A DNA stretch of 21,512 nucleotides from a virus, in the IMG/VR virus record IMGVR_UViG_3300030333_003585, positions 1 through 21,512 of that record; one strand, given 5' to 3'. Both the position numbers and the translations under genes were made by a program. Below are positions 1 through 19,101 of this stretch, piece after piece. The stretch's first letter is position 1; the number at the start of each line of letters is the position of its first letter. Below the pieces are notes generated by a model that saw only the letters and a list, made by a program, of their open reading frames with translations, was not told the DNA's origin and ran no database searches.

Positions 1-496
1 CCACCGCCGTAGCTATAAGTTTTCCGATGGTTGAATCATTGTTGGCCGAGATACTTGCAACATGTTCAATGTCTGCCACGCTCTTAACTGGTTGTGACAT
101 CTTTTTTAAGTTGTCTACCACTTCCCTAGCAGCCAAATCGATGCCACGTTGTAGCTCGATAGGAGAAATACCGGATGCAATGAATCGCTGGGATTCGCGC
201 AAGATGGCTCGCGCAAGGACCGTGGAAGTTGTGGTTCCGTCTCCTGCTTCGTTGTTCGTTTCAATAGCCGCTTGACGTAAGATTTGAGCGCCTGCATTTT
301 CAAATGGATCCTCTAGTGCTACAAAATGTGCAACCGTAACACCATCCTTAGTGATGAATGGTTGCTTACCTTTTTCCTTAAGCAGAACATTGCGACCTTT
401 CGGTCCAAGTGTTGACGCTACGTTATCTGCCAGTACGTTAGCGCCCTTAATAATCTTTTGTTGAAGAGTTTGATTGTCATCATATTCTCTACTCAT
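1..496 (-). CDS. groEL: GroEL chaperonin, N-terminal part (3' end beyond window)
   Basis: This is the first 165 residues of a group I chaperonin, the ATP-driven folding chamber subunit of the cytoplasm. The visible part is the equatorial ATPase domain and the beginning of the intermediate domain. Family motifs are intact: TLGPKGRNV at residues 29-37, KDGVTVA at 50-56 and GDGTTT at 85-90, which include the nucleotide-binding and catalytic Asp residues (D51 and D86, equivalent to E. coli D52 and D87). The ATG at 494-496 follows a GAGGGA ribosome site at 500-505 and a consensus promoter at 520-548, so the gene heads its own transcript. A GroES-like gene lies about 16.6 kb away instead of next to it. 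A phage chaperonin probably folds capsid or other abundant virion proteins (inference). The apical domain is outside the window, so intactness cannot be judged. Confidence 0.95.
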   Translation of the reverse strand, partial: MSREYDDNQTLQQKIIKGANVLADNVASTLGPKGRNVLLKEKGKQPFITKDGVTVAHFVALEDPFENAGAQILRQAAIETNNEAGDGTTTSTVLARAILRESQRFIASGISPIELQRGIDLAAREVVDNLKKMSQPVKSVADIEHVASISANNDSTIGKLIATAV

Positions 497-550: not shown

Positions 551-2089
551 TTATTCTGCGGCTTTTTGTTCAATTGCTTCTTCAGGAATAACATCGTTAA
601 CCGCATCCCTAAGTTTTGTGGCATTTGTTTTAGCCTCAACGCCTTGTGATTTATCTCCAGCGATGAAATAACTATTGATATTGTCTGTCAGATCTCCCAA
701 CGCATTAAAGATATTAACAAGGCTTTGGTTTAGGGTTCTCGTATATTCCACCGCCTTGGCTTCGATCTTATCAGCGTTTAGATCTAGTGTTCCCTTATAA
801 CCTTTAGAATATTCCTTTTTGGTGATTGACCATTGGGCGCCACCAGCAACTTTGCTTCCGTAGCCTTTGGTTTGCTTGAGTGCGGCAAAAACATCACGAT
901 TAATCGAGGCTTGATCGGTGCTTTCTCCAAATTTAGCCATAATATCTCTATGTTGCTCGGGCGTATATAGCTTCAACGCAGAGGGCGCTAGTACATCTCG
1001 CATCTCGCCAGTTTTCTGAAACTTAAGAATAGTTTCGCCCTTTTCTATAGTAATCTTATCAGTAATTTCGGCGCCGGCTGGCGAACCATCAGGTAGTCTG
1101 AATTTGTGCTTGCCTCGGGCAGCGACTGGTGCGTTGTCACCAAACATATTTTTCTCTGGAGAGATTGTTGTTTTTCTAGCAGTTTGTACAGGCACATATC
1201 CCCACATTGGCACTTCTTTTGGCGCTCCAATCATCTGCATAAAGTTTTCGCGTGTCAATTCAAATTCATAGAAATGCAGTCTACCTGTCGCGACATTCTT
1301 GCCCTCTTTGTCCTTCTTGCCTTCTTTAATAACAACCAAGTATACAACCGAGTCAGACTTACGCTGGGGTGCAGGGTCGAGAAAGAAATCAACCAAGTTC
1401 TTAAAGGATCCGTGCACGACACCATCCTGTCTCAGAACCTTAAGACTATAGGGCACAATATCCCAGTTAGGCTCTGCATCAGGATTCTTAGATTGAGCTT
1501 TAAGTTGGACAAAAAGCTGGTTGTCCTCAATTGGGAGAGAGCCCTTTGCGCCAACCTGCTCGGGATCATCTACTTGGATTGAAGTACCCCCAAACAAAGC
1601 AGCAAGGAAAGCTTCAAAAAGAAAGCCGCTCACTGATGCGCCGTAATCGTTAATGATGCTAGCAAATGTATCCAAGAAGATTAAGTAAGACATAATCTTA
1701 GAAATGTCTCCTCCAAGTTCAGCTGGAGGATTATTTACAAAGTTGTTAACGCTTTGAATTTTATCTTCGACGGTGCCACCTTCAATTTGAGATAACAGAG
1801 ACTCCATAACTTGCCTGTCTACATTATCTGGGCTGCCCCAAGCCTCTGTAATTTTGATGACTGGGCGTCGGATTGTCTGTACGTCTTCATCATTTTCGTC
1901 CTCGCCAGTAATGTCAATAACATCTTCTTCTTCGGTCAAAGAGTATCCAGCTGTCTTTATGTGCGCGGCGTTGAGCGAGTTCATAGTCTGCTCAATCATC
2001 TCCATTAATAATTTGGGCGTAAGTTCTGTAACTTTTTCTACAGGTTTCTCTCTCACCTCAATAAACATATCTTTAATGTAATCTGACAT
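551..2089 (-). CDS. Large conserved-looking phage protein of unknown function
   Basis: I do not recognise a characterised family in this 512-residue protein. The first 120 residues are acidic and probably helical, with a strongly acidic patch at 52-70 (EEEDVIDITGEDENDEDV). A hydrophobic stretch follows, then GFLFEAFLAALFGG at 155-168, PIED at 186-189 and YSLKVL at 214-219. The order helix Glu (E159), Asp (D189), then S-x-K (K217) loosely resembles the PD-(D/E)XK nuclease fold, and similar stretches occur in marine phage proteins annotated as structural; both points are from memory and weak. The C-terminal 250 residues show no motif I can name. Its ATG (2087-2089) follows an AGGAA site overlapping the stop of the clpP-like gene, so the two are probably cotranscribed. 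Possible roles are virion protein or nuclease-like protein. Confidence 0.85.
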   Translation of the reverse strand: MSDYIKDMFIEVREKPVEKVTELTPKLLMEMIEQTMNSLNAAHIKTAGYSLTEEEDVIDITGEDENDEDVQTIRRPVIKITEAWGSPDNVDRQVMESLLSQIEGGTVEDKIQSVNNFVNNPPAELGGDISKIMSYLIFLDTFASIINDYGASVSGFLFEAFLAALFGGTSIQVDDPEQVGAKGSLPIEDNQLFVQLKAQSKNPDAEPNWDIVPYSLKVLRQDGVVHGSFKNLVDFFLDPAPQRKSDSVVYLVVIKEGKKDKEGKNVATGRLHFYEFELTRENFMQMIGAPKEVPMWGYVPVQTARKTTISPEKNMFGDNAPVAARGKHKFRLPDGSPAGAEITDKITIEKGETILKFQKTGEMRDVLAPSALKLYTPEQHRDIMAKFGESTDQASINRDVFAALKQTKGYGSKVAGGAQWSITKKEYSKGYKGTLDLNADKIEAKAVEYTRTLNQSLVNIFNALGDLTDNINSYFIAGDKSQGVEAKTNATKLRDAVNDVIPEEAIEQKAAE

Positions 2090-2099
2090 TTCTTAATTC

Positions 2100-2729
2100 C
2101 TATACAATAATATCTGCAATTCCAAGTTGAACTGCCTCTGTCGCAGATAGATAAACATTAACATTGCGGTTTAACATTTCTTTTATATCACCCTCAGTCA
2201 TGTTAGTTTCAGCAGCCAAGCAGCTTGTGTACATGTCTTGAAGATCTTGAATCGCTTCAAGCTCGTTTGTCAAGTCATGAAGGGCTCCTGCGTTACCAGC
2301 GGCCACCGAGTGTATCATAACCCGGCAGTTCTTTGCAATACGGCGTTTGCCCTTTGTGCCACCTGCCAACAGCAGAACGCCTGCCGACATTACCTTGCCT
2401 AACCCAAGAGTGTGGATTTCTGAGGTCTGGCGAATGCCGCGCATAATATCATAAAGAGCAAACATATCGTCTGCGCTGCCGCCGTATGTGGATAGATAAA
2501 ATTCAATGGGCTTTTTCTTCTCCGGATCTTTTTGCAACTTATTCATTTCATTTAAGTAAAGCATAGCGTGAATAATTTCTGCCACCTTTTCTTCATGGAC
2601 ATCGCAAAACATGCCAATAATTCTTAAATCTGGCTCTGGCGTACCGCCGCCCAGTGCCGATGGGTCAAGTAAAACTATTTTTTGTTCATCATCTGCCGAT
2701 GTGATTTTGTCTAGAATTTTCTTTATCAT
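2100..2729 (-). CDS. ClpP-like serine peptidase (Asn in place of triad Asp)
   Basis: This 209-residue protein matches the ClpP/crotonase fold. Segments in order are EFYLSTYGGSADDMFALYD (76-94), KVMSAGVLLLAGG (112-124) with the nucleophile Ser115, and RVMIHSV (136-142) with His140. The third position of the triad lies in NVYLSATEAVQLGIAD (191-206). Ordinary ClpP has Asp there (E. coli D171, in DRFLSAPEA), whereas Asn191 aligns here. ClpP normally forms a 14-subunit chamber with ClpX or ClpA; no Clp ATPase is visible in the window, so it may use a host unfoldase (inference). Its ATG overlaps the stop of the upstream membrane-protein gene by ATGA. It could be an active peptidase with a relaxed triad, a regulatory subunit, or a phage head-maturation protease of the ClpP type. 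The fold assignment is strong, the role is not. Confidence 0.9.
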   Translation of the reverse strand: MIKKILDKITSADDEQKIVLLDPSALGGGTPEPDLRIIGMFCDVHEEKVAEIIHAMLYLNEMNKLQKDPEKKKPIEFYLSTYGGSADDMFALYDIMRGIRQTSEIHTLGLGKVMSAGVLLLAGGTKGKRRIAKNCRVMIHSVAAGNAGALHDLTNELEAIQDLQDMYTSCLAAETNMTEGDIKEMLNRNVNVYLSATEAVQLGIADIIV

Positions 2730-3133
2730 TTTTTTCCTAAATTAAAAAAATTAACCATAAAGCCTTTGTTATCCTCCAAATACTTCATCCCTGAAGTCCA
2801 ATCGTCAAAATCAACAATTGGATCATAAAAATCAGGGTGCAAATCTAGCAATTGATTGATCGCGTTAACTTTATATTCCTTAATTTCGTTGTTAAAAGAT
2901 CTTCTCACGTCTTTAAGATCCTTATCGCTAGCACCAGCCTCTCTTAACTGTCTAAGTTTAGTTGTGTGCGAGTAATAAAGGTTCTCGATTGATTTAGTTA
3001 AAAGACCCAAACTAACTAGTTGCGACACACGTATTAAACCAATGCTTATTTTAACAGAGCGAAAGAAATAAAACGTTTTATGAGTCATATACCCAAATAT
3101 AAAAACTAAAACGTACATCCACCATGGACCCAT
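2726..3133 (-). CDS. Small membrane-anchored protein, unknown function
   Basis: The protein has 135 residues. Residues 3-25 are hydrophobic and aromatic (starting GPWWMYVLVFIFGYM) and should form one membrane helix, followed by basic residues. The rest (about 45-100) is a charged helical region that may form a coiled coil, and the C-terminus is rich in Asp and aromatic residues. No known domain is recognised. The ATG at 3131-3133 follows a good GGAGG ribosome site. It is the first gene after a terminator and promoter pair at 3143-3202 and overlaps the clpP-like gene by ATGA, so it heads a transcript with that gene. An inner-membrane accessory of the ClpP-like protein, or an unrelated lysis or membrane factor, are both possible. 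Confidence 0.8.
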   Translation of the reverse strand: MGPWWMYVLVFIFGYMTHKTFYFFRSVKISIGLIRVSQLVSLGLLTKSIENLYYSHTTKLRQLREAGASDKDLKDVRRSFNNEIKEYKVNAINQLLDLHPDFYDPIVDFDDWTSGMKYLEDNKGFMVNFFNLGKK

Positions 3134-3203: not shown

Positions 3204-4052
3204 CTACTTGTTAGTAAGTCTCTTCATAATTCGTTCGGCCAACTGATCAACCATTTGCTCGCGGTTATTTTCAGCTTGAAGTCTTGCAGCTACACGCTTA
3301 GCCACTTCGTTAACAATCTCCTCGTCCATACCTCTGTATGCACGTCCAGCAGACTTAGGTGCGCCGGATCGTCTCTTAGCCTTCTCGCCCTTACCGGCAC
3401 CAGCACCAGAGGCCATTGAATCTTCTTCTTCCTCATCGGGGGCGCCAAACTTACGTCCAGGGCCTTTATCCATTTTAGCCATCTTGTCGCGACGGGCTCT
3501 CATGTCGTCGGCTCGGCGCTCATCGAGTTCCTCTTCTTCACTCAAACCTTTTCTGCCCTCATCGCCGGCTTCTTTTTCAGCTTCATCGCGCTCTCTCTGA
3601 CGATCGCGCTTCTTTCTCATACGTTCAGCATCGCGCTCTTCCATCATGGGCTCTTCTTCTTCGCCACCCAGATCCATCGCTGGCTCTTCGCCACCCAGAT
3701 CCATGTCCATGTCTTCTTCGTCACCGGGCTCTTCGGAAACATCAGCTTCCTCACCTGTGACTTCTTCAATAGCTCGCTCAAGCGCAGACATGAAATCGTC
3801 CATAGAGACCATCTCACCACCGCCGGCGCCGGCGTCCATATCCATGTCCATGTCCATCTCTTCGTCGCCCATGTCTTCATCGCCCATTTCGGCATCCATT
3901 TCGACATCCATTTCAGCACCTGCATCATCATCGCGCTGGCCGGGCATGGGCATTCCCATCTCGCTAAGACGCTCCTGACCAATAGGGCGCAGATTTGCGA
4001 GCTTCATAAACTGGCGAATCTCGCCTTCTGTTAGTAGTTTCTTACGAGCCAT
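3204..4052 (-). CDS. Highly acidic, repetitive phage protein (possible scaffold or virion protein)
   Basis: This 282-residue protein has three parts. The N-terminus has KLLTEGEIRQFMKLANL (5-21), a pattern I associate with marine phage proteins of presumed structural role. Residues 40-140 are dominated by Asp, Glu, Met and Gly with MD/ED runs, including a 9-residue tandem repeat (GGEEPAMDL and neighbours). A highly charged segment (138-240) alternates Arg/Lys and Asp/Glu. The C-terminus (242-282) is an amphipathic helix pair ending LAERIMKRLTNK. Low complexity and strong charge suit a scaffolding or internal head protein, but no enzyme motif is present. The start is supported by AAGGAG upstream. 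It appears to be a one-gene transcript with its own promoter (4093-4121) and terminator, which fits high or separately timed expression. Function is inference. Confidence 0.85.
   Translation of the reverse strand: MARKKLLTEGEIRQFMKLANLRPIGQERLSEMGMPMPGQRDDDAGAEMDVEMDAEMGDEDMGDEEMDMDMDMDAGAGGGEMVSMDDFMSALERAIEEVTGEEADVSEEPGDEEDMDMDLGGEEPAMDLGGEEEEPMMEERDAERMRKKRDRQRERDEAEKEAGDEGRKGLSEEEELDERRADDMRARRDKMAKMDKGPGRKFGAPDEEEEDSMASGAGAGKGEKAKRRSGAPKSAGRAYRGMDEEIVNEVAKRVAARLQAENNREQMVDQLAERIMKRLTNK
3658..3704. repeat. 27-bp tandem repeat inside the acidic gene
   Basis: The 20-base word tcttcgccacccagatccat occurs at 3658-3677 and again at 3685-3704, a period of 27 bases (9 codons). It encodes the repeated MDLGGEE unit. 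The neighbouring ccatgtccat runs (about 3838-3858) encode the MDMDMD stretch. In-frame slippage probably shaped this region. Confidence 0.8.
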
Positions 4053-4092: not shown

Positions 4093-4121
4093 ATAGTAAC
4101 ATCTTTCTATAATAACCTCAA
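4093..4121 (-). promoter_or_regulatory. Probable sigma70-type promoter for the acidic gene
   Basis: Minus strand: TTGAGG (4116-4121), 17-base spacer, TACTAT (4093-4098). Both boxes have two or fewer mismatches to consensus. The predicted start near 4086 gives a leader of about 34 bases that includes the AAGGAG ribosome site of the acidic gene. The -35 box overlaps the stop codon of the sigma-like gene. Confidence 0.55.
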
Positions 4122-4378
4122 AATCGAAAACAACCTATTAAATTTAAAGACTTGAGCTTTTTGAGGGCTTTTGATTCAATTTGCTTGATTCTTGCGAAGG
4201 AGAGATGCTCTCTCTCGGCTACCTCTCTGAGAGTCATGGGCCCATTTTCATAAACAGAAACCAGAGTACAATTATATTCATCAGGATAATCCTGCCATAG
4301 TCTGCATTCTGTGTCTTTGCATTGTTTCTTTCTTTTCATACATCTACGAGCGCACGCACGTAAGCCATCCTCTTTCAT
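4118..4378 (-). CDS. Cys-rich small regulator with sigma70 region 4-like helix-turn-helix
   Basis: The 86-residue protein ends in GPMTLREVAEREHLSFARIK and QIESKALKKLK (46-76). This closely follows region 4.2 of sigma70 factors (MTLREVAERLGLSRERVRQIE type), the helix-turn-helix that contacts the -35 box. The front half has Cys at 9, 13, 20, 25 and 37, suggesting a zinc-binding or redox-sensitive module. It lacks sigma regions 2 and 3, so it cannot be a complete sigma factor. It could act as a DNA-binding regulator, a partial sigma or appropriator that redirects host polymerase, or a late-gene co-activator (inference). The start overlaps the upstream gene by ATGA. An internal ATG at residue 14 would keep most of the Cys pairs and is an alternative start. 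The motif match is good, the role uncertain. Confidence 0.85.
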   Translation of the reverse strand: MKEDGLRACARRCMKRKKQCKDTECRLWQDYPDEYNCTLVSVYENGPMTLREVAEREHLSFARIKQIESKALKKLKSLNLIGCFRF

Positions 4379-9111: not shown

Positions 9112-9804
9112 TTATAAATTAATGCCAAAAAGTTGTTGAACGAATTGACGGATGACATTATCTTTTTGCTCTTCAGTGTCAGCTTCGGAGAAGATATAAT
9201 TATACGTTCTTTTCTCGTTATCAATCTGCTGAGTAATATCATTCAATTTTGATTTCATCCATCTTGTTTGTTGATCATAGTTCTTTGGGAGCGGAATGTC
9301 AAGCCTCTCAGCAATATCAATCAGAATAAAATAATTCTTTTCTTTCAAAGCCGTGTTAGCGAGCTTAAAATCCTCTTCCATTGAACGCCTTTGCTTATAA
9401 TTATGTTTTAGAGGATCTATCTTATCAGGATGGATTTTCATCGCGATACTTTTAAATAATTTTGAGAACAAGTTGTGGATAGCGATTTCATCCTCAGTCA
9501 TTTGCACATCCTCGGTCTTTTCAGCGCTCATGGTAGAGGGCACTAAATCAGTACCGCTAGACTCAACTACAGGAACATCCCCTGATATTTCATCTTCAAT
9601 TCCGTATGCTTGTTTTATTTCTTCTTGATGTTTTTGATTTAATTCATCTAATGATACATCACGTTTCTTTAAAAAAGATTCATAGTATTCTTGAAAATCG
9701 GGTGCTGTCTCTCTATTCATACTTTTTGTCAGAGAAAGTTCCTCTTTCAAAAACTTGTATTCATTAAGAGTTTTTTTCCACTTTAATTTTTGATAAACAC
9801 CCAT
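9112..9804 (-). CDS. J-domain-like (DnaJ-type) protein
   Basis: The 230-residue protein carries the signature HPDK at residues 125-128 within LFKSIAMKIHPDKIDP, followed by a helix with FKLANTALKEKN, matching helices II and III of a J domain. That domain stimulates the ATPase of Hsp70 (DnaK). Here it is central: about 110 charged residues precede it and a helical tail follows, so it is unlike the usual DnaJ. It may recruit host DnaK to phage proteins or to the replication complex, as DnaJ does for phage lambda (inference). Its ATG (9802-9804) has no clear ribosome site, which is unusual in this window, so it may depend on coupling to the ClpP-like gene 18 bases upstream. J-domain identity rests mainly on the HPDK segment. 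Confidence 0.8.
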   Translation of the reverse strand: MGVYQKLKWKKTLNEYKFLKEELSLTKSMNRETAPDFQEYYESFLKKRDVSLDELNQKHQEEIKQAYGIEDEISGDVPVVESSGTDLVPSTMSAEKTEDVQMTEDEIAIHNLFSKLFKSIAMKIHPDKIDPLKHNYKQRRSMEEDFKLANTALKEKNYFILIDIAERLDIPLPKNYDQQTRWMKSKLNDITQQIDNEKRTYNYIFSEADTEEQKDNVIRQFVQQLFGINL

Positions 9805-9822: not shown

Positions 9823-10431
9823 TTATTTGAACTCAAAGTCTACTTTAACATCAATTTTCATTTCTGGAATCTTTAACTTGTTTGCCAGTTTATGCCGTTT
9901 AGCTTCTTTCGCGTCAAGAAACCAGTCTGCATGTCCTTTTTCATGAACAATATCAAGAAAATAATTTTCTTCATGGCCACAATTGGAAGCCATCATTTTA
10001 TACACCTTTTGATTTAGTCTCTCGACTTCTTTTGCATCAGCTTTGATCTCTTCGACTTTTCCCCACCCCATCGAACTAACATCGTGAATCATCACTGTAG
10101 CATCAGGGTCCATATACCTCATACCATCGAGGCCAAAGCTGAATAAAATAGCGCCACAAGACATGGCTTTGCCTTGCACAATCGTAGCTACCGGCAAAGT
10201 CGAGTGCTGGATGTCTGAGATCATAGACATAAGGCTATAAACCTGTCCTCCATAGCTATCAATAATAACGGGCACGACTGGCTGACCTGTGTTTTGAGCT
10301 TTCATCATTTGAGTTGAAAAATCCTTTGCGGAACTTTCATCAAACTTGTTAACGCGAATAATCACAGGAAGATTATCGTTTCTGAACTTCACCTCTTTAA
10401 GCAGAGGACTTGGTGTATAAATAATATTCAT
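9823..10431 (-). CDS. ClpP-like serine peptidase, complete catalytic triad
   Basis: This 202-residue protein is a second ClpP homologue. VVPVIIDSYGGQVYSLMSM (52-70) is followed by GKAMSCGAILFSFG (87-100) with nucleophile Ser91, ATVMIHDVSSMG (111-122) with His116, and HADWFLDAKEAKRHKLANK (167-185) with Asp169 in the triad position. All three catalytic residues are present, unlike the homologue at 2100-2729. The two are clearly diverged, not a recent duplication. ClpP peptidases act in a chamber with an unfoldase; none is visible here, so it may pair with a host ATPase or the other homologue (inference). It follows the polymerase gene by a few bases, with a weak AGGA site overlapping its end. 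Confidence 0.9.
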   Translation of the reverse strand: MNIIYTPSPLLKEVKFRNDNLPVIIRVNKFDESSAKDFSTQMMKAQNTGQPVVPVIIDSYGGQVYSLMSMISDIQHSTLPVATIVQGKAMSCGAILFSFGLDGMRYMDPDATVMIHDVSSMGWGKVEEIKADAKEVERLNQKVYKMMASNCGHEENYFLDIVHEKGHADWFLDAKEAKRHKLANKLKIPEMKIDVKVDFEFK

Positions 10432-10434
10432 TTT

Positions 10435-13400
10435 TTATCCTAATAGTCTGAATGTTTTACCTACAGCGTAGGTTGAAAAGCCCCAGTTGTCGTCGTACTT
10501 TAAGCGAGCCATATATGGGCGATTCAAGTGAATGCGATCCTTTTCGGGCTTAATGCCCCAACACCGGATGCGGGTGAGTTCATTGTTGCTGTCAATAACT
10601 TCAACAATCCAATAGTTCTTTCCGTTCTTTGTTTTTCTCGGAGTAATCTTGCGCGGGATAAACCAGCACACCTGTAACTCCTGATCAAACTCAGAGATCG
10701 GAGGCACAAACTTATCTTGTAGTCTCTGCACTGTGTCGGGTCGAATAACCAAGTTAATCGGGAATACGCCAGTCAAATCAGTCTTAAACTGGATAATCTC
10801 CTCCTCGGTGAAGTCGCCCTCTGGTCGGTAAAGTTCCAAATTCTCAGAAAATCTCTTGGGATTTTTTGGGCGGTCCACGATACAGGCAGACCAAAAGTGT
10901 TTTCTGCCAGTGAATCGATCGTCTACAATGTCATCTAGCGCACCACCACGACAGAGAGCATCAAGTGCCTTCTTGTTTAGCTTGCTGTATACGATCTCTT
11001 CTCGGAACAACAGATCCTCTGCGTTAGTGAACGGACGATGGGCGAGCACTTGTTCAATGGCCTTCTCCCCCAGTCCCTTGATAGATGTGAGTGGCTGGAT
11101 GAGCGTCTTCCCGTCTTCGCTGATCTCCCATACCTTCCCTGACTTGTTGATGTCCAGAGGCGCAATCTTAAAGCCGTACTTCTTCGCGATGTTGATTGCC
11201 TTTTCCTTTCTGCTCTCGGGCTCTTTGTCCAAGAACGCCGCCATCCACTCGGCAGGGTAGTAGTTGAACAGCCACGCACACTGGAACGAGATGATAGAAT
11301 AACTGACTGCATGAGACTTGTTGAAGCCATAGCCTGAGAAGAACTCAAACTTGTCCCATAGGTCTTGGGCAGCGTCACGGGGTATACCCTTGTCAACACA
11401 TCCTGTGATGAACTTCTTATGTAGCTTGCCTTTCACGCTGTTCTTTCCAGTCCCTTTCTTCGTCAAAACCTTCCGCAAAAGATTACCCTCGTCAAGAGTT
11501 AGACCACCCAGCTTGTGACCCAGCAGAGCAATCTGCTCTTGGAAAATCAGAAAGCCAAATGTCTCCTCTGTAATCTCGCGTGCCTCTTCCGATAGATAAG
11601 ACACATAGTGCGGCTGTTCCTTGGCATCGATGTAGTCTGCATCCACGCCAGCCGACAGAGGACCAGGGCGGAAGATAGACGTGATAGCCGAGATGTCAAT
11701 GATGCTGTTCGGCTTTGCCTTCGTGCAGAAGTTCTGTGCTCCGTGCTCTGTAAACTGGAAGACACCAGCCCACTTGCCTGGGTGAAAGATATTTTCATAC
11801 ACCTCTTGATCATTAAGATTTAACACATCAGGGTGCAGCTTCTCCATGTAGTAGTCTCGCACCTGTGCAAACGTTGGCTCTTCAACTCCGTGATGACGGC
11901 GCAGAATGTGATAGATTGCACCTTCCATCATCTTTAACGTAGACAGACCAAGCAAGTCAAACTTGATGAAGCCCATTGGCTCAAGGTGCCTGACGTTCTG
12001 ACCCTCTGCCCACGGAGCCTGTCGCACACCACCAGAGTTAATCAGCGGCATGCTGCTATCTAGGTTCTCTGCGATAACCACGCCACCAGCGTGACGTGAG
12101 CACGACCGCACCTGACCAACAAGACCTTCAACGTGCGCCCTGACTGCTGGATACTTGGCGAGGTAGCTTTGTAGCGATGGGGAGAACTCCATCACCTCTT
12201 CCCACGTGGGCGCATAGATACCAGCCTTGATGCCGTGCTTCTTCTTTGCCTCGGGTGTAGCCTCGCGCATCATCACGCCAGTCACTCGGTTTGCCTCGGT
12301 GAACGGGATGTCATAGAGCTTGGAGATGTCTTTAATCAACGATCTCAACTGAAGTGTGTTCCAGTTAGAGATTGGAGCAACGCAGTCGGCACCCCACATC
12401 TCCACCAGCTTCTCCTTCAGAGCCATACTATCGGACACATCATAGTCAATATCTGGGTAGTCTGTAGCATCTGACCGCAAGAAGCGAGAGAACAGCAGAC
12501 CATACTTGATAGGATCAACCTGCGTGATGCCCAGTGCATACGCCACCAGCGAACCAGCCGCAGAACCACGCCCAGGACCAGTCAGCATCATTGTGGACGC
12601 CACGTCAGCGATTGACTTCATGGTCAAGAAATACTTAGAGAAGCCTCGGTCATCAATAACATCTAGTTCGTGCTTAAGTCGCTGTACATACTCAGGGTTC
12701 TTATGTAGTTGTCGTTCCTTCAATCCCTCCAGCGCATACTGGACGAGTGCCTGTGTTGCCGTGTAGCCTGCTGGAACCACGAAGCTTGGGAGGCGCACCG
12801 TGTTGTCTGGAAAGAACTTTTCAATGCGGTCAAACGCAATACGATGCGACTCCTCAATGCTCTCGCGCACCAGCTCATCGTCGTATTCAAAGCCGCCCTC
12901 GGAAGCATACTTCTTATAGCTCTCCCACATCTGGTCGCCGTTCTTGGGATAAAGCTCGTAACCAACTTCTTCAACACCCTCGGGCAACTCAGACTCCATA
13001 TAATCTGGCAGTCCTCCCTTGCCTAGCCAGCCAAGACGAGTGTATAGTTCTCTGTCTCGCCAAGCATCTGGGTTGGGATAGTGGCTGTCGGCTGTGCTAA
13101 GAAGTTTAACGTTGTGCTTCTGCGCTGTCTGGATAATGTATTGGTTCAGCTTGTGTTGATCCTCTACGTTGTTCCATTGAATCTCGGCATACCAGCGATC
13201 ACCAAAGATATCTACCATCTTTTCAGTCGTCTCGCTCATCGCGTTAAGTACAGCCTCATCACCATCTTCGCGGTGCTCCCAGTAGTTTCCAGCATAGACC
13301 CCACCAAGACAAGCAGAGGCAGCGATGATGCCCTCGTTGTACTTCTTTAATAGCGCGTAATCAATGCGAGGATAGCGATAAAAGTTCTCTGGCTGGTAAG

Positions 13401-13863
13401 ACTCGGACACCAGTTTGAAGAGGTTGTTGAGCCCTGTCTGGTTCTGTGCGAGTAGCACAAGGTGACGACGGCGGCGAAGGATTCCTTGGACCTTCTTGCT
13501 TGCGCCTTCGTCCTCAACAGTCGCGCCTGACTGCTCGTCCTTCTTGATAGAGCGTGCACGCTTCTTGTCTTCCATAGCCTTCTCATATTCCTCTCGCCAC
13601 TCTTCCAGCGACGGGATGAAATACGCTTCGCAACCATAGATGGGCTTAAAGTCCTTGCCCTCTTCCTGCATCTTCTTGGCGTGCAGAACCTGATACGCTA
13701 GCCCGTTCATGTTTCCATGATCGGTGAGCGCCAATGCCTCTCCTCCATTCTCATAGCAAAAATCCATATGCGCCTGGGGATACCCAAGCGCATCAAAAAT
13801 AGAACCTGCTACACTATGAGCATGAAGGCCCACAAACTTGATCTTCGATGTCTTTCGACTCAT
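10435..13863 (-). CDS. dnaE: DNA polymerase III alpha subunit (DnaE type), with intact PHP site
   Basis: This 1142-residue replicative polymerase has the usual order: PHP domain (1-270), polymerase core, helix-hairpin-helix region (LTSIKGLGEKAIEQVL) and a C-terminal OB-fold (about 1040-1110). Core motifs are GPGRGSAAGSLVAY (429-442), PDIDYD (470-475) with catalytic Asp471 and Asp473, RHAGGVVI (590-597) and FDLLGL with Asp636. The PHP metal ligands appear complete: H14, H16, D24, H49, E79, H134, C185, D259, H261. Many dnaE relatives have lost some, so intrinsic 3'-5' proofreading is plausible. No separate exonuclease domain is inserted, so this is not PolC. The start is ATG 13861-13863 with GGGAG at 13869-13873; an upstream in-frame start at 13914 lies inside the previous gene. 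Confidence 0.95.
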   Translation of the reverse strand: MSRKTSKIKFVGLHAHSVAGSIFDALGYPQAHMDFCYENGGEALALTDHGNMNGLAYQVLHAKKMQEEGKDFKPIYGCEAYFIPSLEEWREEYEKAMEDKKRARSIKKDEQSGATVEDEGASKKVQGILRRRRHLVLLAQNQTGLNNLFKLVSESYQPENFYRYPRIDYALLKKYNEGIIAASACLGGVYAGNYWEHREDGDEAVLNAMSETTEKMVDIFGDRWYAEIQWNNVEDQHKLNQYIIQTAQKHNVKLLSTADSHYPNPDAWRDRELYTRLGWLGKGGLPDYMESELPEGVEEVGYELYPKNGDQMWESYKKYASEGGFEYDDELVRESIEESHRIAFDRIEKFFPDNTVRLPSFVVPAGYTATQALVQYALEGLKERQLHKNPEYVQRLKHELDVIDDRGFSKYFLTMKSIADVASTMMLTGPGRGSAAGSLVAYALGITQVDPIKYGLLFSRFLRSDATDYPDIDYDVSDSMALKEKLVEMWGADCVAPISNWNTLQLRSLIKDISKLYDIPFTEANRVTGVMMREATPEAKKKHGIKAGIYAPTWEEVMEFSPSLQSYLAKYPAVRAHVEGLVGQVRSCSRHAGGVVIAENLDSSMPLINSGGVRQAPWAEGQNVRHLEPMGFIKFDLLGLSTLKMMEGAIYHILRRHHGVEEPTFAQVRDYYMEKLHPDVLNLNDQEVYENIFHPGKWAGVFQFTEHGAQNFCTKAKPNSIIDISAITSIFRPGPLSAGVDADYIDAKEQPHYVSYLSEEAREITEETFGFLIFQEQIALLGHKLGGLTLDEGNLLRKVLTKKGTGKNSVKGKLHKKFITGCVDKGIPRDAAQDLWDKFEFFSGYGFNKSHAVSYSIISFQCAWLFNYYPAEWMAAFLDKEPESRKEKAINIAKKYGFKIAPLDINKSGKVWEISEDGKTLIQPLTSIKGLGEKAIEQVLAHRPFTNAEDLLFREEIVYSKLNKKALDALCRGGALDDIVDDRFTGRKHFWSACIVDRPKNPKRFSENLELYRPEGDFTEEEIIQFKTDLTGVFPINLVIRPDTVQRLQDKFVPPISEFDQELQVCWFIPRKITPRKTKNGKNYWIVEVIDSNNELTRIRCWGIKPEKDRIHLNRPYMARLKYDDNWGFSTYAVGKTFRLLG

Positions 13864-14149
13864 TCTTTCTCCCGGAAAATTTAATCCAAATACCCCATAG
13901 AATGGGGACTGCAATAGGGTGGAAGCACATTATCCAACTAATGGGTGCGCCCGTTAAGAACCAAGGATTGACGTTGTTTCCAAGCCAAATAAAGATTACA
14001 GGAAAGACAACATCTTCAACAATCTCCCATCCAATGAAAATTATCAAGAATGCTAGTCCGTGCTCTTTAAGAATGCTTTTAAAATGCGACCACTTAAAGT
14101 GATGTAGCTTATGGGTAATCCTATGCCACAAATTTTTAAGTATCTTCAT
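13814..14149 (-). CDS. Small integral membrane protein
   Basis: The 111-residue protein begins with a basic His-rich segment (1-28), then two hydrophobic stretches, about 31-57 and 64-90, that would span the membrane, and a charged tail with CGPSC near the end. No domain is recognised. It overlaps the polymerase gene by 50 bases and the upstream gene by 14, both unusually long overlaps here. The ATG (14147-14149) follows a GAGGAAGG site. A promoter-like sequence at 14173-14201 lies just before it. A membrane anchor for replication, a holin or a superinfection-exclusion protein are all conceivable; none is supported by motif. Confidence 0.7.
   Translation of the reverse strand: MKILKNLWHRITHKLHHFKWSHFKSILKEHGLAFLIIFIGWEIVEDVVFPVIFIWLGNNVNPWFLTGAPISWIMCFHPIAVPILWGIWIKFSGRKNESKDIEDQVCGPSCS
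13869..13873 (-). promoter_or_regulatory. Ribosome binding site deciding the dnaE start
   Basis: GGGAG on the minus strand, five bases before the ATG at 13861-13863. It fixes the polymerase start at the residue that precedes RKTSKIKFVGLHAHS, giving a normal-length PHP N-terminus. Confidence 0.8.
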
Positions 14150-16838: not shown

Positions 16839-17126
16839 TTATTTAATAATCCCCACTACATAATTATCAAGAACAACGTTTATTTTACTATTATTTATAG
16901 TAATTTCTTCAACCATTGATTTGTCTACAATGACAGATGTTCCAACACCGCCACACATTACTAGCTGATCTTTGAACCTAACGTCTGCGGCATACGCAAC
17001 TACTTTTGCTGTTACGTGCCTCTCTTCTGTTGGCTTATAATCATCAGGCAGTACAAGGCTGCTTTCTGGTTTGGACTTGGGCTTTGGTAAGCTTATGTGA
17101 ATATATCTATTGACTGGTTTAAACAT
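16839..17126 (-). CDS. GroES-like co-chaperonin
   Basis: Starting at ATG 17124-17126, supported by GAGGT at 17131-17135, this is a 95-residue protein. A longer frame to 17273 lies within the reductase gene and is rejected. It begins FKPVNRYIHISLPKPK, like the KPLxDRVIV strand of GroES. SKPESSLVLPDDYKPTEERH (18-37) corresponds to the mobile loop, with LVL in place of the IVL tripeptide that docks GroEL. Then come VTAKVVAYAADVRFKDQLVM and a C-terminal strand ending NYVVGII, as in GroES. It should cap the GroEL ring and may set chamber size for phage proteins, as T4 gp31 does (established for gp31; inference here). It is cotranscribed with the reductase and far from the groEL gene. Confidence 0.85.
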   Translation of the reverse strand: MFKPVNRYIHISLPKPKSKPESSLVLPDDYKPTEERHVTAKVVAYAADVRFKDQLVMCGGVGTSVIVDKSMVEEITINNSKINVVLDNYVVGIIK

Positions 17127-17130
17127 TTCT

Positions 17131-17135
17131 ACCTC
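17131..17135 (-). promoter_or_regulatory. Ribosome binding site deciding the GroES-like start
   Basis: GAGGT on the minus strand, four bases before the ATG at 17124-17126 and overlapping the reductase stop codon. It shows that the 95-residue product is the real GroES-like protein. Confidence 0.75.
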
Positions 17136-19101
17136 ATATTGTACAGCTATCGTTTGTGCAAAATTTAGATCCGCTTCCGCCTTCTTCAGTATCAAATCTC
17201 TGAATAGGTTGGATGTTTTTAACAAGCTTCTCGTATTGCTTTTTAGTAATTGGTTCATAGGGTGCTTGGGCATACCCAGTTTCCTCGTATTTTAGAAACG
17301 AAACTGCTTTAAGTCGAGTTTCGTACATCTCTAATGCATCTTTTAATTGGCTGGCCTCTTCAGGTTTAAAGGTAACCGTAATTGATACCGAGTTGTCTGC
17401 CCAATAATGTTGATACTGCGCTGCCATTTCCAATTGCTCCCACATCGAGACCGATCTCTTACCTTTTTGGAAATAAGGTTCATGGACAGGAAATTCAACA
17501 CACACGGTATTGGGCGAATATTGATCTTCTTCCATATTATATCCTGCTTCTGCTAAAGTTTTAAGTAATTCTGAATCTTTTCCAAACCTGATCCGTCTAA
17601 TATAATATTCATCCTCTGGGAAGTGAATACCGGGAGTTGAGCCATTTAGCAGAGACACAGTGCCGCTTGGCTTAATGCTGGTCATTCTGATAGACTTAGG
17701 GATACAAAGCCAGTTAGAATATTCCTGATCAAGTTGCTGAACATACTCATAGGCATTGTCGCACCAGTCTAGCATTTGGCGCTTGCCGTGCTTGTTAAAC
17801 GCCTGCACAACACCAGACTGCGACAAGCCGATTCGTCTGTTTTTGAGCATCTTTGCATTAGTCTCCGGCCAGTGTGTATTGGACAGGGTAATGGTCTTGC
17901 CATACAGATACGCAATCTTTAGCGTTCTAAGGTAATCTTCGTAGTCGTCGTGCTTCGCCGGGAATGTCTCCACAAGACAGCACAACTCCGCATCCTCTAG
18001 TTGCTGCTCAACACAAGGATTAAAACCAGCAACGTTGATATCATCAAAGCGGGGGCCATCTTTAAAGCGCCCACGTGTGCGGGCATTATCTAGCCAGATG
18101 TACCCTGGCTCTCCATTCTTTTGTGACTGCTCTGCGTGCCAAGTATAGTCCATCCCCACCACAGCGTTAAAAGAGTTGTTTGATCCCCATCGGTGATGGT
18201 AAAGTTTCTCTTGATCGTTCTTCATCTCAAGATACTGACGATCGTCGTGCGCGCCCATCGCTAGCGCAGCTGAACGCCGCACATTGCCAGCAACCACACA
18301 GCGACCAATAAGGTTCTCTGTGTCCACAATGTCTACAGATGTGATAGGCTCGCCAACTTTAGCTGTATACAACTCCGTTAGATTATTGTGCAGCTCGATT
18401 AGTGGGCCGGCGCCAGAAGATGTACCGCCAAAGCCACGGATGGGGGCACCTTCGGGGCGAATCGCAGAGTAATCAAACTTAGGCACTTTGTTGCCAAAAA
18501 AGAAACCATCCAACAAGGTGTGTACTGAGTCAACCCAGCCTTCACGCGAGTCATCTATGACTAGTGTATCGTTGGTGTATTGGGGCTCTTTGATTGTAAT
18601 GCTGTTCTCGCCCTCAGTATCAAAACCCACGCCAATGCCAACCATCAGCGCATCCATCATCCACGCGAATAGATAGCCACCCTTAGTTGCAAGATCGCGC
18701 GTCGAACGAAAAGCACAATTGAACAATCCTGCGGCTGTACGCTCTTCGATGAACTTAGTGCCCATCATCCACAGCCCTCGGCCAGGAGGGGTCCACTTAA
18801 GATTAAACAATCGATCGTATGCCTCCTTGGCTGTACGTTGTGCTTTGCTGTCATTCCATTCCAAGCCAAGCATAAAGACATGTTGTTTTTGCATGTTGAA
18901 CATTCCCTCAACAACACGTCGGCAAGTTTGCCACCATTCTTCTGTACCGGTCGCATCAGGGTCAAATTCGTTCAGGCGCCTAGCATAAGTGCGCTTGAAC
19001 GTAACGTATCCTAATGGACCCCAAGGCACTTCTTGCTGTTTGTAAGGTTCGATAAATGTGTCCGATAATCTAAATCTGCGGATATTCTCCAGTGTTCTCA
19101 T
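17134..19101 (-). CDS. nrdJ: Class II (adenosylcobalamin-dependent) ribonucleotide reductase
   Basis: The 655-residue enzyme makes deoxynucleotides from ribonucleotides using a B12-generated radical, so it works with or without oxygen. It resembles the monomeric triphosphate reductase of Lactobacillus leichmannii (739 residues). The thiyl-radical Cys363 lies in FNPCVEQ (360-366) with general-base Glu365. The disulfide pair is probably Cys129 (GLFNCAF) and Cys374 or Cys375 (ELCCLVE). SLLNGSTPGIHFPE (483-496) and ADNSVSITVTFKPEEA (568-583) are family signatures, and the C-terminal CTNDSC (648-653) carries the relay cysteines reduced by thioredoxin. Its start overlaps the helicase stop by ATGA. 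A phage thioredoxin and dUTPase elsewhere in the window complete dNTP supply. It depends on host cobalamin. Confidence 0.95.
   Translation of the reverse strand: MRTLENIRRFRLSDTFIEPYKQQEVPWGPLGYVTFKRTYARRLNEFDPDATGTEEWWQTCRRVVEGMFNMQKQHVFMLGLEWNDSKAQRTAKEAYDRLFNLKWTPPGRGLWMMGTKFIEERTAAGLFNCAFRSTRDLATKGGYLFAWMMDALMVGIGVGFDTEGENSITIKEPQYTNDTLVIDDSREGWVDSVHTLLDGFFFGNKVPKFDYSAIRPEGAPIRGFGGTSSGAGPLIELHNNLTELYTAKVGEPITSVDIVDTENLIGRCVVAGNVRRSAALAMGAHDDRQYLEMKNDQEKLYHHRWGSNNSFNAVVGMDYTWHAEQSQKNGEPGYIWLDNARTRGRFKDGPRFDDINVAGFNPCVEQQLEDAELCCLVETFPAKHDDYEDYLRTLKIAYLYGKTITLSNTHWPETNAKMLKNRRIGLSQSGVVQAFNKHGKRQMLDWCDNAYEYVQQLDQEYSNWLCIPKSIRMTSIKPSGTVSLLNGSTPGIHFPEDEYYIRRIRFGKDSELLKTLAEAGYNMEEDQYSPNTVCVEFPVHEPYFQKGKRSVSMWEQLEMAAQYQHYWADNSVSITVTFKPEEASQLKDALEMYETRLKAVSFLKYEETGYAQAPYEPITKKQYEKLVKNIQPIQRFDTEEGGSGSKFCTNDSCTI

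Follow-up and report, generated by a model that had tools for sequence, protein, structure and literature searches.

The ClpP1 subunit of Listeria is described as carrying a Ser-His-Asn triad, in which Asn172 selects an inactive heptamer while the site has the active arrangement inside the ClpP1/2 complex (PMC5361862). ClpPs with a Ser-His-Asn triad are described as rare in bacteria (PMC12900304), and the ClpR subunit is described as being without the catalytic triad (PMC4673316). Here we set beside these systems two ClpP-fold proteins, ClpP-N and ClpP-D, encoded in a 21,512-base virus record (the window, by which we mean the whole stretch of DNA analysed). The window also codes for DNA polymerase III alpha, a DnaB-type helicase, ribonucleotide reductase, IMP dehydrogenase, dUTPase, two DNA methylases, an amidase, and the start of GroEL. 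The phage collection contained no near match to the window, and relatives of the ClpP-N/ClpP-D lineage, which is a group of large ocean phages, are abundant in IMG/VR. One family-alignment scan of bacterial and archaeal genomes, made with narrow patterns and not implying absence, matched 28 stretches, none of them a relative; the defence library matched neither protein. Judged by titles and abstract openings, the literature searched contained no work on an Asn-triad ClpP in phages, and exact phrases returned none.

Translation of the open reading frame, profile comparison, alignment, and AlphaFold2 prediction define ClpP-N (2100..2729, minus strand) as a 209-residue ClpP-fold subunit with the residues Ser115 (codon at 2385-2387), His140 (2310-2312), and Asn191 (codon AAT, 2157..2159, minus strand). 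The original prediction, that the serine and histidine are intact and that an asparagine stands in the place of the triad aspartate, is confirmed: translation gives both residues, and alignment puts Asn191 on Asp171 of E. coli ClpP, immediately after a 2-residue insertion in ClpP-N. The protein scores 109.9 bits against the Pfam family CLP_protease (PF00574, cut-off 20.2) and 81.4 bits against the NCBIfam equivalog for canonical ClpP (TIGR00493), below the cut-off of 308.6. The AlphaFold2 model (mean pLDDT 85.4) contains a long handle helix at residues 150-174 and a strand starting at residue 191, and superimposes on human ClpP (1tg6_E) with a Z score of 24.5 and an rmsd of 1.5 Å over 164 residues. 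Sequence identity to solved cellular ClpPs is approximately 24-31%.

ClpP-D (9823..10431, minus strand) is identified by translation, profile, and predicted fold as a 202-residue ClpP-fold subunit, and the full Ser91-His116-Asp169 set claimed for it is indeed present. The canonical Ser-His-Asp triad is thus found in ClpP-D alone of the two proteins, and its third residue is Asp in all 81 rows of the alignment. ClpP-D scores 85.3 bits against PF00574 (cut-off 20.2) and 64.1 bits against TIGR00493, again below 308.6. Its Foldseek match to 4u0g_D has an E-value of 4e-14 and a TM score of 0.69-0.71, with model residues 119-129 at pLDDT below 50. The Foldseek and VIA-align lists for the two proteins are filled by ClpP; the rows listed include none of the Listeria entries that PMC12900304 names, a result that carries no weight.

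The reading that we prefer, and hold tentatively as a whole, is that ClpP-N and ClpP-D belong to different phage branches of the ClpP (S14) fold, with ClpP-N a core, competent Ser-His-Asn subunit having its own ring and ClpP-D a dispensable second subunit. Specifically, ClpP-N would probably be catalytically competent, as a Ser-His-Asn protein of the Listeria ClpP1 kind, with sites that are slow or gated by assembly, not dead; with nucleophile and base kept, its asparagine is better read as slowing or gating catalysis than as killing it. ClpP-N would most likely form its own ring or a partial ring, and may be tethered near the membrane by the small protein of an overlapping gene. ClpP-D, when present, may join ClpP-N or may function by itself. 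Because the lineage yielded no Clp ATPase, the substrates of the two ClpPs would be loose protein or protein unfolded by the host, among them possibly proteins that bear the tag of a phage tmRNA.

The triad residues were followed in an enlarged ClpP-N set of 174 distinct viral-contig DNA sequences, the window's own included, obtained from 312 ORFs by collapsing identical 3′ ends and dropping ORFs shorter than 450 bases; the lineage records are fragments. Ser and His are each present in 174/174 sequences, and the third residue is Asn in 172, Asp in one, and a gap in one. In the first ClpP-N set, Asn is found in 87 of 94 distinct proteins, with one Asp and six gaps, and the codons at this position are AAT (78), AAC (49), and GAT (1). 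The synonymous variation between AAT and AAC, with Asn retained though one transition gives Asp, points to selection. The sole Asp191 variant (L078) is placed within the ClpP-N clade, on a tree whose root serves for drawing only, and so appears to be derived from Asn and not ancestral. The L078 locus is without ClpP-D.

The two genes usually co-occur, the pairing is not obligate, and the Asn subunit is retained more consistently than the other. Exactly two PF00574 genes are present in 19 of 20 long lineage records (the twentieth has ClpP-N near the contig end) and in five of six further records. The place of ClpP-D was judged by a marker gene, that for DNA polymerase III alpha just upstream (10435..13914, minus strand). 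By this measure, ClpP-D lies upstream in 80 of the 174 ClpP-N loci, the polymerase gene stands without it in eight, and the remaining 86 do not extend far enough to judge. ClpP-N is thus not constantly paired with a Ser-His-Asp ClpP, being kept without one in 8/88 readable loci, a figure that is not an unbiased rate, later scans having been partly aimed at ClpP-D-less relatives. A search of the whole records for those eight found a single PF00574 gene each, that of ClpP-N, and in one of the records (G021, 189,712 bases) DnaE and the J-like gene abut where ClpP-D would stand. On the ClpP-N tree the presence or absence of ClpP-D requires five changes, at least two of them forced by well-supported branches. 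In the reverse direction, 23 of 100 distinct ClpP-D genes could not be read and the other 77 are all followed by ClpP-N, giving no case of ClpP-D without ClpP-N among the 77 readable loci of the lineage; a lone Asp-type relative is found in a distant phage of 595 kb. In a distance-matrix correlation over 53 distinct loci, ClpP-D correlates best with ClpP-N (r 0.62), but ClpP-N correlates best with IMP dehydrogenase (r 0.70).

These counts bear on the proposal that an altered and an active homologue together resemble the ClpP/ClpR type of mixed ring. What stands of it is that an altered and an ordinary ClpP are usually found in the same phage; the likeness to ClpR does not, Ser and His being invariant here. 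An altered subunit that merely regulated the ring of another should not outlive its partner, yet eight of the 88 loci keep ClpP-N alone, which speaks against that part of the proposal. The usual co-occurrence (80/88) fits a joint complex equally well, and a mixed ClpP-N/ClpP-D complex is possible, though not obligate. In particular, a mixed tetradecamer as in Listeria ClpP1/ClpP2, with the Asn subunit inactive until it meets the Asp subunit, is an alternative that we regard as possible but rather unlikely. It draws on the Listeria precedent for the asparagine, on the joint presence of both genes in most long records, on the presence of ClpP-N at every readable ClpP-D locus, and on a second Asp/Asn pair in another lineage, that of Bacillus phage FADO. 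The only Asp revertant also lies in a locus without ClpP-D, as would be expected if an Asp partner relaxed the need for Asp in ClpP-N; a single case proves nothing, and the association of Asp191 with ClpP-D loss (1/8 against 0/80, one locus) is not significant. Against an obligately mixed ring, ClpP-N persists where ClpP-D is absent, and the third residue, Asn in all 80 loci with ClpP-D, is still Asn in seven of the eight loci without it and Asp in one.

The surroundings of ClpP-N are conserved. The gene immediately upstream (2726..3133, minus strand), whose stop overlaps the ClpP-N start (ATGA), codes for a 135-residue protein with a hydrophobic N-terminus, a putative membrane anchor, and adjoins ClpP-N in 172/173 readable loci. 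Of 135 relatives of this protein, 95 pass the hydropathy threshold, which makes a membrane anchor plausible but not firm. A very acidic 282-residue protein whose N-terminus bears a strongly conserved motif of the MARKKLLTEGEIRQFMKLANL type (3204..4052, minus strand) is encoded upstream of ClpP-N in 173/173 readable loci and has no match in the phage collection. A capsid-targeting signal in its MARKKLLTEGEIRQFMKLANL motif was considered and dropped, a motif search of two lineage records (G001 and G002) having found that protein only. Further upstream, an 86-residue protein (4118-4378, minus strand) has a sigma-70 region 4 domain (PF04545, 33.5 bits) and is a possible phage transcription factor. 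On the other side, between ClpP-N and GroEL, lies the gene for a 512-residue protein of no known family (551..2089, minus strand), which follows ClpP-N in 74/75 readable loci; its best relative in G002 is located elsewhere (89759-91456). The N-terminal part of GroEL (1..496, minus strand) is cut by the window edge, and GroEL lies at most 2.5 kb downstream of ClpP-N in 105/106 readable loci. Directly downstream of ClpP-D is the gene for a J-domain-like protein with an HPD motif (9112..9804, minus strand; Pfam DnaJ E 0.022, under the cut-off). The motif is present in 53/53 distinct relatives found by similarity, and the gene was detected downstream of 49 of 78 ClpP-D genes in an earlier set. A GroES-like protein (16839..17273, minus strand) is a weak assignment, Pfam Cpn10 being below cut-off.

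Twenty lineage records contain no Clp ATPase matching AAA_2 over the cut-off, with three weak matches below it; by comparison, AAA_2 ATPases over the cut-off are present in 9 of 17 named ClpP-bearing phage records. A divergent unfoldase could escape PF07724. The pocket of E. coli ClpP that receives the unfoldase loop comprises positions that we take to include Tyr60, Phe82, Phe112, and Leu114. At eight E. coli-type pocket sites, hydrophobic residues number four in ClpP-N, three in ClpP-D, and eight in E. coli ClpP. ClpP-N relatives have mostly E/D, variable residues, K/R, and G/A, respectively, at the places of the four residues named. As far as sequence can indicate, the canonical unfoldase-loop pocket is largely lost in both phage ClpPs, and another docking mode may take its place. 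Since no ATPase was found in the lineage, cleavage of peptides or unfolded protein, or an unfamiliar mode of docking, is likelier than ordinary ClpXP work. Separately, G002 codes for what we read as a MoxR-type AAA protein beside a metallopeptidase/vWA-like protein, a pair described in jumbo phages (PMC7824862).

Full-length tmRNA genes score over the Rfam cut-off in all four lineage records of at least 189 kb (G001, G002, G021, and G023) and in the huge phage LR756511.1. They include G001 29469-29890 (plus strand; L161:9469-9890) and G002 75409-75752 (minus strand; L174:15409-15752), with further tmRNA genes in L313, L316, and L312. The other 22 of the 26 lineage records searched, all shorter than 116 kb, have none over the cut-off. 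The lineage tags (ANNNNNFESVRLAA, ANNNNHFESVRLAA, ANNNNHYDEVRLAA, and ANNNNHFEQRLAA) end in RLAA, and the LR756511.1 tag is ANPEFAMAA. SmpB was found in none of eight records. As a yardstick, tmRNA is over the cut-off in 5 of the 17 named ClpP-bearing phages, and one phage survey reports it in 402 of 18,146 genomes, stated as 2.3% (PMC9004378); in both comparisons genome size is a confounder. The data point to a possible phage-encoded tag-and-degrade set, in which tmRNA and ClpP may be functionally linked. More speculatively, and with rather little confidence, we suggest that ClpP-N is the core of a phage-owned, membrane-linked module in which ClpP-D is optional, and which, with tmRNA (RLAA tags), GroEL, and the J-like protein, would act on host or stalled proteins by tagging, holding, and destroying them; where ClpP-D is lost, Asn could revert to Asp.

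The same observations could be read as a dependence on the host, in which ClpP-N would join or poison host ClpP rings and redirect host ClpXP or ClpAP, with the phage tmRNA supplying tags. The lack of a Clp ATPase in the 20 records and of SmpB in the eight would mean that host partners are needed for ATP-driven degradation and trans-translation, and both the retention of ClpP-N without ClpP-D and the tmRNA genes of all four long records are consistent with such a role. The low identity of ClpP-N to cellular ClpPs, the insertion near the ring-ring contact, the changed handle, and the mostly lost pocket speak against this explanation, which we consider unlikely.

Somewhat less probable still is that ClpP-N is a catalytically dead structural subunit. 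The loss of the triad acid would suggest this, but the invariance of Ser and His across the 174 sequences argues against a dead, ClpR-like subunit, as do the active arrangement described for the Asn-triad sites of Listeria ClpP1 in its complex (PMC5361862) and the low, Ser/His-dependent activity that a Ser-His-Pro ClpP is described as retaining (PMC12900304). A restored triad, in which another acid replaces Asp171, is very doubtful. The candidate, Asp87, at the place of E. coli Thr71, is present in 174/174 sequences, has no counterpart in E. coli ClpP, and is matched by an Asp at that place in the Asn-type protein of LR756508; nevertheless, L078 keeps the DD motif alongside its Asp191, and the Asn-type FADO_b is without an acid there. 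Least probable of all is that ClpP-N, ClpP-D, or both are head maturation proteases, as the names of the PHROGs families matching them (8e-15 and 1e-19) would have it, because 5 of 20 lineage records (the other 15 being fragments) encode a prohead protease of the T4 gp21 type (PF03420) together with both ClpPs, because in G002 the PF03420 gene lies near the T4-type portal and terminase with the ClpP genes tens of kb away, and because the scores against the ClpP-related NCBIfam head maturation family NF045542 (55.6 and 59.1 bits) are below its cut-off of 120.

On this evidence of location and profiles, it is most likely that neither ClpP is the head protease. For phage ClpPs of this kind, the label of head maturation protease given in databases is probably mistaken when the phage also has a gp21-type protease. 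Phage ClpP-like head maturation proteases share the fold and the PHROGs matches with the proteins described here, but this lineage has its separate gp21-type prohead protease. Among other phages, the ClpP of LR756511.1 is 55% identical to ClpP-D and likewise accompanied by tmRNA, but no ClpP-N was found in that phage, and it codes for a ClpX with an IGF loop. Since LR756511.1 pairs its ClpP-D relative with ClpX, that relative may work with ClpX.

A wider survey covered 26 ClpPs from the 17 named phage records (27 matches, one of which fell below the cut-off and was excluded). Of these, 23 carry Asp as the third residue, FADO_b and LR756508 carry Asn, and one copy from a Vibrio phage carries Glu; in two contigs filed as Listeria phage, both ClpPs have Asp. 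Contigs L261, L259, and L260, filed as Escherichia phage EC22.5-2 and Listeria phage LM 4-14-1, carry bacterial-looking ClpP genes. Since the EC22.5-2 protein matches E. coli ClpP exactly, host DNA is probably included in these phage records. Bacillus phage FADO (L262, L307) resembles the present lineage in having a divergent pair of ClpPs, with Ser-His-Asn in one and Ser-His-Asp in the other, and in that no AAA_2 ATPase was found. Its Asn-type ClpP differs in branching elsewhere in the tree, next to an Asp-type sister from phage vB_BcoS-136, so that the asparagine of FADO probably has an independent origin.

With the ClpP3/ClpR systems of cyanobacteria and plastids, the phage pair shares the presence of at least two ClpP-fold subunits, one of them altered. 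The analogy is rejected for ClpP-N, in which Ser115 and His140 are retained in all 174 sequences: ClpR has lost the triad, whereas in ClpP-N the third residue alone is changed. The proper comparison, and the closest precedent, is Listeria ClpP1, which we compared through the published papers. ClpP-N differs from it in being phage-encoded, in having the 2-residue insertion before the asparagine, in being kept when the Asp partner is absent, in the overlapping gene for a putative membrane protein, and in that no Clp ATPase of its own was found. The likeness to Listeria monocytogenes ClpP1/ClpP2 is that of a Ser-His-Asn ClpP accompanied, within one genome, by another ClpP with Ser-His-Asp, and the phages present it as a large natural Asn-triad family (172/174) in which the Asp partner is variably present, a natural test of the dependence of an Asn triad on an Asp partner.
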